From Oscillospiraceae bacterium (GTDB lineage: Bacteria; Bacillota; Clostridia; Oscillospirales; Acutalibacteraceae): DNA of 55,297 nt. Where the stretch lies: contig CADAUV010000005.1 in the NCBI GenBank assembly GCA_902791235.1, forward strand, positions 1-55,297. The letters run 5' to 3'. The position numbers and the translations under genes are program-made. The notes below the pieces were generated by a model that was not told the origin of the DNA, did not search any database, and saw only the letters and a list, made by a program, of their open reading frames with translations. The first letter of the stretch is position 1; each line of letters begins with the position of its first letter. Of the stretch, positions 3,187 to 47,405 are shown one piece after another.

Positions 3187-3394
3187 TTAATTACTCCTTT
3201 CGGTGAAAAAGCTTTGATGAAAACATATAATAAAATTATTATTTAATATAATAGCATACTTTGTTATAAATTGATATATCTTTTTTGTAAAAAATTAATC
3301 CGCAATTTAATTATTTATTCACACAAAACACTAACACACTTTCAAAAAGTATGATATAATAAAATTAACGAAAACAAGAAAGGCTCAGGCTTTT

Positions 3395-31190: not shown

Positions 31191-32030
31191 ATGAAAAAAA
31201 TATTATCCGTTATTACGGTTGCCGTTTTACTTTCGGCAATGCTCGTTTCCTGTAAGCAGAATGCGGATGTTACCAGGCAGGACACCACTGAAAGCACAAC
31301 CGTAACAACCACGACGGCGACAACGACTGAGGACATCAGCACGACCTTTGAGGAGGCGCACACATATAAAATCTATCCTGCGCTTCAGAAGGACCCCGAC
31401 GGCAGCTATCCCTACGAGGCTTCAAGCTTTACAACCTACTATCAGCCGTCAAATGAAACGAGGACGACAAATATACAGAACGCCGTTTCAAGGCTTGACG
31501 ATTTATGCATACCCGACGGAGCGACCTTCAGCTTTAACCAGACTGTCGGCAAGAGAACGGTGCTTGCAGGCTATGAGGAGGCAAAGATTGTCAAGGGCGA
31601 CGAATTTGTCGACGGGCTCGGCGGCGGTATCTGTCAGGTAAGCTCAACAATCTTTCAGGCGGCGCTTCGCGCGAATCTTGATATAACGGTACGCGCCTGC
31701 CACTCGCTTGAAATCAGCTATGTTCCGCTTGGCGCTGACGCAACTGTACAGTGGAATTCACAGGACTTTCAGTTCAAAAACGATTCGGGCAGCGACCTGA
31801 GGCTTTCGGTCTACGCCTCAGACGGCAAGCTCAACTGCACAATCTATGCGCAGGACGATATCGCGCCGGGCGACCTCTCGGTCGATATCTCAAAAAGCGG
31901 CGAAACCTATACGCTGACAAGAACAGTCAACGGCACGGTGAATTACTCAACCTCGAGTAAATACCAGAAGCCGAAGGAAACAACAACCAAAGAGGACTTA
32001 AAACCCTCGCCTTTGGGGCATCCGTCATAA
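31191..32030 (+). CDS. VanW-family lipoprotein
   Basis: A 279-residue protein. Signal peptide with lipobox LVSC (Cys21), a Thr-rich linker (about 30-50), then a VanW domain (FSFNQTVGKRT, GLGGGICQVSSTIFQAALRA, SLEISYVPLGADATV). VanW proteins are cell-envelope proteins common in Clostridia; their activity is not settled. The C-terminus ends in a low-complexity tail. The last residues and the TAA abut the repeat element that starts at 32028, so the native C-terminus may have been altered by that insertion. It probably shares a transcript with glmU. Confidence 0.88.
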   Translation: MKKILSVITVAVLLSAMLVSCKQNADVTRQDTTESTTVTTTTATTTEDISTTFEEAHTYKIYPALQKDPDGSYPYEASSFTTYYQPSNETRTTNIQNAVSRLDDLCIPDGATFSFNQTVGKRTVLAGYEEAKIVKGDEFVDGLGGGICQVSSTIFQAALRANLDITVRACHSLEISYVPLGADATVQWNSQDFQFKNDSGSDLRLSVYASDGKLNCTIYAQDDIAPGDLSVDISKSGETYTLTRTVNGTVNYSTSSKYQKPKETTTKEDLKPSPLGHPS

Positions 32031-32044
32031 AGAAGTTAAATATT

Positions 32045-32097
32045 AAGCCTTCCCCTTGAGGGGAAGGTGGATTGCCGAAGGCAAGACGGATGAGGTG
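32045..32097 (+). repeat. Palindromic repeat A, copy 1 (left border of the DUF559 unit)
   Basis: A 53-bp unit: CCTTCCCC/GGGGAAGG hairpin, then a TTGCC-GAA-GGCAA hairpin, then GATGAGGTG. Copy 2 lies at 47353-47405 in the opposite orientation with two to three changes. The inner end GATGAGGTG also supplies the ribosome site of the DUF559 gene. The bases 32028-32044, starting TAAAGAAGTT, are shared with copy 2 too. Confidence 0.92.
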
Positions 32098-32102
32098 TAA
32101 AT

Positions 32103-32447
32103 GTGAACAAAACAAATAATCCGACACTAAAGCCTTATGCGCAGAAGTTACGCAGAGAAATGACAAAAGAAGAACGGCATTTGTGGTATGACTTTCTGAA
32201 AGGACTACCCGTTACCTTTAACCGTCAAAAGGTTATAGGAAACTATATCGCCGATTTTTATTGCGCTTCATCAAAACTGATTATTGAACTTGACGGCTCG
32301 CAACACTACAAAGAAAAAGGCATTGAGTCGGATAAAAAGCGCGATGAGTATTTTAACTATCTTGGTTTAGTAGTTTTAAGATACTCAAACGAGGATGTTA
32401 ATCATAATTTTGACGGCGTATGCGAGGACATTTTGAAGCGATTATAA
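32103..32447 (+). CDS. DUF559 endonuclease-like protein inside a repeat-bounded unit
   Basis: A 114-residue protein with PD-(D/E)xK-type features of the Vsr/MutH-like DUF559 family: Glu23/Glu24 in MTKEERHLWYDF, Asp51 in NYIADFYC, and Glu62-x-Asp64 in KLIIELDGSQH. GTG start; the only ribosome site is GAGGTG (32092-32097), inside repeat A. The stop codon (32445-32447) touches repeat B at 32448, so the gene fills the space between the two repeats exactly. No methylase or other restriction partner is nearby. A role as nicking/processing enzyme for the flanking palindromes is suggested by this layout only. Confidence 0.85.
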   Translation: MNKTNNPTLKPYAQKLRREMTKEERHLWYDFLKGLPVTFNRQKVIGNYIADFYCASSKLIIELDGSQHYKEKGIESDKKRDEYFNYLGLVVLRYSNEDVNHNFDGVCEDILKRL

Positions 32448-32498
32448 CACCTCATCAGTTTCGCTTCGCTCAACAGCTTCCCCTCAAGGGGAAGCCTT
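32448..32498 (-). repeat. Palindromic repeat B, copy 1 (right border of the DUF559 unit)
   Basis: A 51-bp unit; read on the minus strand it is a CTTCCCC/GGGGAAG hairpin, then TTGAGCGAAGCGAAACT, then GATGAGGTG facing the nuclease gene. It is related to repeat A in its two ends and inverted relative to it. The copy at 47275-47325 is identical over its length as far as can be read. Confidence 0.92.
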
Positions 32499-32620
32499 TT
32501 TCTTTTTTGGGATTTGTCTTTACAAATCCTATGCTCGCTGCGCTCTGTGACACATATTTGCCCTTCACTAAAAACTATGATATAATGAACGCAACAAATT
32601 GGGATTATTCGAGGTAAAAC
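32499..32620 (+). promoter_or_regulatory. Conserved cassette leader with promoter, copy 1
   Basis: Nearly the same sequence as 47274-47151 read on the minus strand. It contains an inverted repeat GGATTTGT/ACAAATCC-like (near 32510-32529) and then a promoter: TTGCCC (32558-32563), 17 bp, TATAAT (32581-32586). Similarity continues to the start codon of the cargo gene. Confidence 0.82.
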
Positions 32621-33172
32621 ATGAAACTTGTTTTTATAATTGGTGATGCAGCCGTAGGGAAAATGACCGTAGGTCAGGAACTGATGAAGATAACAGATCT
32701 GCGACTATTTCATAATCATATGACCATTGAGCCTGTGATAGAGATTTTTGGTGGATTTGACGGCAAAACGATATCGGAGATACGCGAGGTCATTTTCAGA
32801 AATTTTGCAGCCTCCGATAATTACGGAATGATTTTTACATATATGTGGGCTTTTGATATTAAAGATGACTGGGATTATATAGAACATGTGAAAGAAATAT
32901 TCAGTCCGTATAATACAGAGTTTTATTATGTGGAACTGATTGCACCACAAGAGATAAGATTGCAAAGGAATGCAACGAAAAACAGACTTAATCACAAACC
33001 TTCCAAAAGAGATATATCGTTATCAAATCAGCGTCTGATAAATGACGATAAGAATTACAGGTGTGTAAGCTTTGAAGGCGAAATAACTTTTGACAATTAT
33101 CTCAGGATTGACAACTCTAATAAACGCCCTGAAGAAGTTGCCAAAATGATAAAGAAAGAATTCGACCTGTAA
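32621..33172 (+). CDS. Small P-loop kinase-like protein (cassette cargo)
   Basis: A 183-residue predicted nucleotide-binding protein: beta strand plus P-loop IIGDAAVGKMTVG (Gly8-Thr16), then LFHNHMTIEPV, as in a family of AAA/shikimate-kinase-like predicted kinases. Substrate unknown. It is AT-richer than glmU and dnaC around it. The gene sits between a leader and a terminator segment that are both shared with the DUF6440 gene at 46962-47150, though the two coding regions are unrelated. Ribosome site GAGGT. Confidence 0.75.
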   Translation: MKLVFIIGDAAVGKMTVGQELMKITDLRLFHNHMTIEPVIEIFGGFDGKTISEIREVIFRNFAASDNYGMIFTYMWAFDIKDDWDYIEHVKEIFSPYNTEFYYVELIAPQEIRLQRNATKNRLNHKPSKRDISLSNQRLINDDKNYRCVSFEGEITFDNYLRIDNSNKRPEEVAKMIKKEFDL

Positions 33173-47274: not shown

Positions 47275-47325
47275 AAGGCTTCCCCTTGAGGGGAAGCTGT
47301 TGAGCGAAGCGAAACTGATGAGGTG
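47275..47325 (+). repeat. Palindromic repeat B, copy 2
   Basis: A 51-bp copy of 32448-32498 in the opposite orientation. Its inner end GATGAGGTG faces repeat A across only 27 bp (47326-47352), where copy 1 has the DUF559 gene. Confidence 0.92.
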
Positions 47326-47352
47326 GAAATAATCAAGAACAATTAAAACTTA

Positions 47353-47405
47353 CACCTCTTCCGTCTTGCCTTCGGCAATCCACCTTCCCATCAAGGGGAA
47401 GGCTT
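47353..47405 (-). repeat. Palindromic repeat A, copy 2
   Basis: A 53-bp inverse copy of 32045-32097 with changes in the hairpin loop and in the inner end (GAAGAGGTG). The outward sequence runs to TAAAGAAGTT at the rsmE stop codon, as copy 1 does at the vanW stop codon. Confidence 0.92.

Follow-up and report, generated by a model that had tools for sequence, protein, structure and literature searches.

A DUF559 nuclease gene between inverted palindromic repeats as a probable autonomous mobile element

Within the 55,297 nucleotides analysed here (the window), a gene for a small nuclease is fitted between two inverted palindromic repeats, A and B, and elsewhere in the window the same two repeats enclose a short spacer in place of the gene. 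This raises the question of whether gene and repeats form one mobile unit and whether the nuclease is what moves it. We consider it likely that A-DUF559-B is an autonomous mobile element, in which DUF559 mobilises A-gene-B units together with their gene-less kin.

The window locus, its protein and its gene-less copies

The features of the locus are collected in Table 1. Re-reading of the sequence bore out the layout described in the first-pass annotation: A and B are inverted repeats of each other (outer arms of 32 nt, 84% complementary; inner arms of 18 nt, 83%), the DUF559 start codon lies 5 nt past A, and the stop codon touches B, which is followed by a T-rich, terminator-like stretch. The empty counterpart that had been proposed was also recovered, at about 47277-47404 on the opposite strand, with 27 nt between its two repeats. 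A gene for a VanW-like protein (PF04294, E 1.1e-45) is located directly before the element, at 31191-32030, and the gene after it, at 32621-33172, gave no Pfam match at E 0.001. The 4227 models of Rfam 15 gave no match up to E 1 in the region 31900-32700.

Table 1. Features of the full element and of the gene-less copy in the window
Feature	Position	Strand	Description
Left flank, common to gene-less copies	32010..32044	+	GTCATAAAGAAGTT...; outside the element proper
Repeat A, left end	about 32045-32098	+	hairpin CCTTCCCC-TTGA-GGGGAAGG, second hairpin TTGCC-GAA-GGCAA, then GACGGATGAGGTG
DUF559 (EDxHD/Vsr-like) endonuclease gene	32103..32447	+	114 aa, GTG start
Repeat B, right end	32448..32498	-	inverted relative to A; outer hairpin of the same class as A, CTGT...ACTGATGAGGTG type
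Right flank, common to gene-less copies	32499..32606	+	separate dispersed repeat of the genus; promoter-like end TTCACT-N17-TATAAT (by eye)
Repeat B' of gene-less copy	47277..47325	+	counterpart of B
Spacer, 27 nt, in place of the gene	47326..47352	-	between B' and A'; slightly altered versions in gene-less copies of three related genomes
Repeat A' of gene-less copy	47353..47404	-	counterpart of A

The assignment of the open reading frame to DUF559, made earlier by inspection, holds: it matches PF04480 with E 3.4e-32 and 111 bits, above the curated Pfam cut-off of 20.6, and it is the single occurrence of this domain in its genome (1.84 Mb; assembly 88% complete). A profile built from 13 family members matched NGO0050 of N. 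gonorrhoeae, itself a DUF559 protein (3hrl, E 6.8e-41), as well as the homing endonuclease I-Bth0305I (3r3p, E 4.8e-4). The predicted structure of the window protein (pLDDT 89) retrieved 3hrl and 3r3p as the first two entries of a fold search, with 3r3p at rank 2, so that the relation of the catalytic domain to EDxHD homing endonucleases is found both by profile and by fold. Alignment of 26 members, including the window protein, left 13 invariant columns (R17, E24, W28, R41, Q42, D51, F52, E62, D64, G65, H68, D77, R93). Since these include a D, an E-x-D and an H that we take to be the active site, the window protein is probably active as an endonuclease.

A second gene-less A-B copy of the same genome was found on contig C44. 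The likeness of the copies exceeds chance, because A and B have best non-self matches of E 3.6e-30 and 7.0e-58, respectively, in the 1.84-Mb genome, and because the C44 copy is a third A-B pair there. Within the genus, the 27-nt spacer is found again, little changed, in genomes G000, G002, G016 and G031; the gene-less copies in G006 and G026 are built around different spacers (20 and 25 nt). Gene-less forms also occur in other families of the order (G190, G200, G341), with left-type and right-type ends around 20-30 nt; the same ends also enclose a DUF559 gene in G291:C183, a copy broken by an in-frame stop.

In the window's genome the likeness of the copies also runs on for about 20 bp to the left of A and for up to about 90 bp to the right of B; the right-hand flank is an independent dispersed repeat, which other genomes of the genus carry by itself. 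Genome G031 has two DUF559 copies, on contigs C66 and C51, whose similarity starts at the outer arm of A and stops at the outer arm of B, and the element proper is therefore taken to end at the outer hairpins. Genome G013 holds two DUF559 genes with three differences at two sites, each within the same repeats. Thus, from the copies in both genomes, the unit that changes place is repeat-gene-repeat, and the A-to-B unit stands at more than one site.

The second dispersed repeat, at 32499-32606 of the window, consists of GGATTTGTCTTTACAAATCC followed by TATGCTCGCTGCGCT... and a promoter-like end, and stands alone in several genomes; a relict of it was seen on contig C2 of the window's genome (C2:35430-35547), beside a terminator-like hairpin.

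Association of the repeats with DUF559 genes

For the flanks of DUF559 genes, a strict repeat was defined as a hairpin whose first arm is pyrimidine and after which comes a purine third strand that is the mirror image of the second arm. Within the window's own order, 63 loci from the matches listed were analysed, 60 of them with a domain match of more than 70 residues and 58 with enough flank. A strict repeat was detected on at least one side in 44 of the 58 loci and on both sides in 23, compared with one of 58 after shuffling; a few of the 44 are poor matches (for example, downstream of the gene at L033). The 14 misses include close relatives of the window gene, and all except L223 have inverted or palindromic flanks by eye.

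An alignment of 35 repeats (33 exact and two with shortened loops) showed that both helices keep their pairing. Cells changed on both sides numbered 97, against 31 in shuffles, and the covariation score was 0.605 against 0.206 shuffled and was lost when the pairing partners were slid. Helix 1 was partly a selection criterion for these repeats; helix 2, which is independent of the selection, had 87% of its cells paired and 49 double changes. The A repeat of the window belongs to the same class as this alignment (A4), with its covariation in both helices. By eye, GGGGAAGG mirrored fits the third strand GGATGAGG at 6 of 8 positions, and the strict detector, which allows at most one mismatch in 7, is not passed; judged from these letters, A appears to fit the intrastrand-triplex class loosely.

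The association extends across phyla. When 84,980 species genomes were searched with an alignment of four proteins, at least 585 loci were confirmed, and the best 80 of these were used; because they were ranked by likeness to the E. coli protein, Proteobacteria prevail among them. The record titles of these best 80 of at least 585 loci also name Dadabacteria, Methylomirabilota, Nitrospirae, Anaerolineales, Rokuibacteriota, Verrucomicrobia, Nitrospinota, Desulfuromonadaceae, Planctomycetia and Clostridia. In the 75 loci with enough flank (from the best 80 of at least 585), a strict repeat was present within 160 nt upstream of DUF559 in 61 (32 of 732 control ORFs from the same loci; 1 of 75 with shuffled flanks), on either side in 66 (77 of 732 controls), on both sides in 20 (1 of 732) and on neither side in 9, and the upstream and downstream flanks were inverted repeats of each other in 33 of 74 DUF559 loci against 7 of 716 controls. 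By eye, most of the 40 loci that scored below 14 in the inverted-flank test have such a repeat just before the start codon. From a plasmid collection with 41 DUF559 records, 12 loci were viewed, and by eye each of them shows such a repeat no more than 240 nt away on one side or both. The first-pass annotation had held that the link would fall if DUF559 genes were usually found without the repeats; the counts of loci with a repeat on one side or both, across phyla (66/75) and within the order (44/58), run against this.

In four betaproteobacterial loci (L138, L140, L160 and L167), DUF559 is located before what by eye seems to be the same downstream gene, whose start the four loci have in common and which we take to resemble an acetyl-CoA acyltransferase. 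Given this common neighbour, some insertions are old and kept.

The co-occurrence of gene and repeats was assessed in 295 genomes of the order, in which DUF559 was present in 89 (75 at E <= 1e-20 and 14 weaker). With a repeat model that scored at most 21 candidates per genome, at least one copy was found in 73 of the 75 genomes with strong DUF559 matches, in 5 of the 14 with weak matches and in 73 of the 206 without DUF559; at least 10 copies were found in 54 of 75 and 23 of 206, respectively, in comparisons that ignore the relatedness of the genomes. Hence the repeats are not equally common where DUF559 is absent; an equal frequency had been named beforehand as counting against the link. Exclusion of the 13 genomes that fed the repeat model gave 60/62 against 78/220, with weak DUF559 genomes counted in the 220. 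One of the two DUF559 genomes without repeats, G045, has the domain inside a 799-residue open frame that presumably also contains a methyltransferase part, as judged by eye. Repeats persist in many genomes without DUF559, and 15 of the 206 have at least 15 copies.

Y1 transposases, including RAYTs, occur in 110 of the 295 genomes. Repeats were somewhat more frequent in these (at least one copy, 65/110 against 86/185 without Y1, p 0.02; at least 10 copies, 39/110 against 41/185, p 0.01; Fisher tests, which ignore the relatedness of the genomes). Among genomes without DUF559, at least 5 repeats were found in 12 of 74 with Y1 and 25 of 146 without, and at least 10 repeats in 11 of 74 and 15 of 146. 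The odds ratio of the Y1-repeat association is 1.5-1.9, far weaker than the association with DUF559. A RAYT as the main driver of the repeats was accordingly rejected as a better explanation, and only the weak Y1 association remains.

Movement of the unit and its match with the enzyme lineage

The clearest trace of insertion was found in genomes G039 and G106. There, a 39-bp direct repeat flanks the A-gene-B unit, which sits close to a gene's end; in their congeners G124 and G087, the 39-bp stretch is present once, without an insert, and leads directly into the next gene. G084 has a direct repeat of 56 bp, with one difference between its copies, at distances of 5 and 8 nt from the outer sides of the two hairpins. 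Clean long target duplications of this kind amount to two independent events among 131 DUF559 loci. Long direct repeats (score >= 30) around DUF559 were detected in 14 of 74 loci against 7 of 688, most of them tandem repeat pairs, and a wider test gave 20 of 131 DUF559 loci against 28 of 732 control ORFs, again mostly tandem repeat pairs. Target duplication as a general rule was rejected, the clean events being only two. The moved copies, the one empty site and the gene-less forms in other families lend support to the earlier proposal of an autonomous element with MITE-like derivatives, in which the 27-nt spacer may be what a deletion left of the gene.

For the window's own insertion, no orthologous empty site was found, the two neighbour genes being matched separately on different contigs in the rows compared, and the S. 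meliloti and A. brasilense plasmids gave no clean empty site among the matches listed. The E. coli DUF559 gene, ycjD, was present in 3365 of 5426 genomes, at 3371 places, and in 3333 genomes one place covered at least 80% of the sapF-ycjD-fabI query. In three E. coli genomes without ycjD, efflux genes follow right after sapF, with no clean empty site. The E. coli gene thus looks vertically inherited, with no visible movement.

Enzyme lineage and repeat type match. Protein identity correlated with hairpin-arm similarity among 55 loci of the order (Mantel r 0.52, p 0.001) and among 68 cross-phylum loci (r 0.13, p 0.004), in tests that used the 123 of 140 genes with a usable hairpin and that ignore the relatedness of the hosts. 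Distant DUF559 paralogues within one genome carry different arms (G031, G043, G013, G004, G057, G039), and close paralogues share them (G031, 77% identity; G013, 100% identity).

Together, we infer from these data that DUF559 acts on and cuts the repeats, its presumed substrate, and that the element spreads by a nick-and-fill route. The ends of the element would be folded repeats of the intrastrand-triplex class, each with a hairpin, often a second hairpin, and then a purine third strand mirroring the first stem, and its only gene encodes a small endonuclease of the EDxHD/Vsr fold. DUF559 may recognise its own type of repeat by the folded or triplex end, and cut or nick the DNA there or next to it. 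Entry of the element, or of the form without the gene, into a new site could then proceed through breaks with filled-in ends, and the filling-in would sometimes duplicate tens of bases of the target. The A-spacer-B copies and the single repeats elsewhere would be non-autonomous relatives.

Known systems and competing explanations

One of the closest parallels is the REP/REPIN-RAYT system, whose enzymes are Y1 transposases akin to those of IS200/IS605. Both systems have one gene enclosed by inverted palindromic repeats, numerous dimers and single units that lack the gene, and a repeat type that follows the gene lineage; A and B, too, occur as inverted palindromic dimers dispersed without the gene. 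That system uses a HuH tyrosine transposase, whereas the enzyme here is a DUF559/EDxHD nuclease; the distribution of the repeats is little explained by Y1_Tnp, and long target duplications were seen in two cases. No Y1 (HuH) transposase lies between A and B, and the two Y1_Tnp matches of the genome are elsewhere (contigs C24 and C27). GTAG-tagged palindromes are a defining trait of the REP/RAYT system (PMC3733652), and neither GTAG nor CTAC occurs within A or B. In our best reading, by analogy, DUF559 would play for its repeats the role that RAYTs play for REPs, with an enzyme of another class.

EDxHD homing endonucleases such as I-Bth0305I (3r3p) share the catalytic fold and a sequence relation with the window protein, whose 114 residues, however, leave no room for a separate DNA-binding region; no intron or intein was seen, and a related unit is inserted at a new site with a duplication. 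Given that a homing endonuclease is the closest solved enzyme outside the family, it is conceivable, if unlikely, that the repeats are moved by another agent (a RAYT-like transposase or replication slippage) and that DUF559 is a homing-type passenger copied into pre-existing repeat pairs. Such a passenger would fit the A-spacer-B pairs without a gene, the repeats in genomes lacking DUF559, the weak Y1 association and, by eye, the triplex-type repeat that stands alone in Azospirillum sp. B510 at the sufB-sufC site holding DUF559 in S. parapaucimobilis. The Y1 association is nevertheless far weaker than that of DUF559, and the repeat type follows the DUF559 lineage. Homing enters a cognate empty allele without target duplication, whereas the relatives G039 and G106, which represent one event, have a 39-bp duplication that homing into an existing pair would not produce, and the corresponding site of their congeners lacks the entire A-gene-B unit.

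DUF559 could instead be a Vsr-like host repair nuclease, the flanking repeats its operator, terminator or recognition site, and the dispersed repeats its genomic targets and not offspring of an element. The Vsr mismatch endonuclease and Caulobacter VsrA have the PD-(D/E)XK fold; VsrA bears a DUF559 domain and is reported to have a host role tied to cytosine methylation (PMC12907096). The T-rich, terminator-like stretch after B and the single locus of ycjD in most E. coli genomes that have it point the same way. We find this reading improbable: the window gene, unlike these, lies between mobile repeats, DUF559 is sporadically distributed (89/295 genomes of the order; 3365/5426 of E. coli), near-identical copies occupy two loci of one genome, insertion occurred with target duplication, and different paralogues of one genome have different repeats. 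Hairpins followed by T-rich stretches, as at B, are common between genes, but ordinary bidirectional terminators beside an ordinary gene, or chance, are a most improbable account and were rejected on the control ORFs, the shuffles, the covariation and the ends common to full and empty copies. The element is also unlike a DDE insertion sequence or MITE, with a DDE transposase and a short fixed duplication: DUF559 is the sole gene between the ends, and the duplications in relatives are 39 and 56 bp.

DUF559 as the mobilising enzyme of A-gene-B units therefore stays our preferred explanation. Since the sole gene encodes neither a HuH nor a DDE transposase, and one clear insertion is unlike homing, the element is called one of a new kind.

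The repeats themselves resemble the intrastrand triplex motifs (TM/TMECO; Holder et al. 2015, PMC4666352), which are reported from E. coli and others, in having a pyrimidine stem, a loop, a purine stem and a mirror third strand. That study counts 23 TMECO motifs in MG1655, with more variation around them; it states that no mobility genes were found near the motifs, leaves the cause of the instability open, and describes a TMECO oligonucleotide whose triplex formed in vitro and was not seen in vivo (PMC4666352). Judged by sequence and map position, the copy that lies downstream of ycjD (the E. coli K-12 DUF559 gene) corresponds to TMECO no. 9. The present repeats differ from those motifs in their link to a nuclease gene, and the clostridial forms have a second hairpin between stem and third strand.

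If DUF559 moves the repeats, it would define a nuclease-only class of mobile element in bacteria, present in many phyla; a widespread, unexplained class of bacterial repeats would gain its missing enzyme, and ycjD of E. coli K-12 would be a directly testable model. Among the titles and abstract openings listed from the open-licence literature, none ties DUF559 to repeats, and an earlier mention elsewhere is possible; in the text of a 2025 REP survey, the words nuclease and transposase are absent.

CGTC-tagged REPs (Di Nocera et al. 2013, PMC3733652) are likewise small tagged palindromes that frequently occur as inverted pairs and for which no transposase is known. A CGTC...CCA-like frame is also present in the second hairpin of A, which reads CGTC-TTGCC..GGCAA-TCCA on the other strand and has a stem of 5 bp, compared with the 8-9 bp and CCA tail of the CGTC-REP definition. 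Besides the stem lengths and the first hairpin, the neighbouring gene differs, being a GIY-YIG nuclease beside the CGTC-like palindromes in the seven loci viewed.

A broader proposal, which in our estimate could equally prove right or wrong, is that much of the small palindromic repeat content of bacteria belongs to an unrecognised mobile class run by a lone endonuclease of fewer than 120 residues, DUF559 for triplex-type repeats and GIY-YIG for CGTC REPs, and spread by nicking or cutting beside folded DNA with fill-in by host repair. If such a class exists, the instability of triplex-motif loci between strains would be explained.

In Azospirillum lipoferum 4B, at sufB-sufC (L248:1190-1760), and in L250-L255, CGTC-tagged REPs form inverted pairs that enclose a gene for a small GIY-YIG nuclease. 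Seven such loci were viewed of 34 records; CGTC-like palindromes were seen near the gene by eye, and the strict detector was positive in four of the seven. The GIY-YIG nuclease may be the missing enzyme of CGTC REPs.

The gap between sufB and sufC is occupied by DUF559 with a triplex-type repeat in Sphingomonas parapaucimobilis, by GIY-YIG with CGTC REPs in A. lipoferum and Shinella, and by a triplex-type repeat alone in Azospirillum sp. B510. This gap (L080, L248, L249 and L254) is a shared landing site inside an operon.
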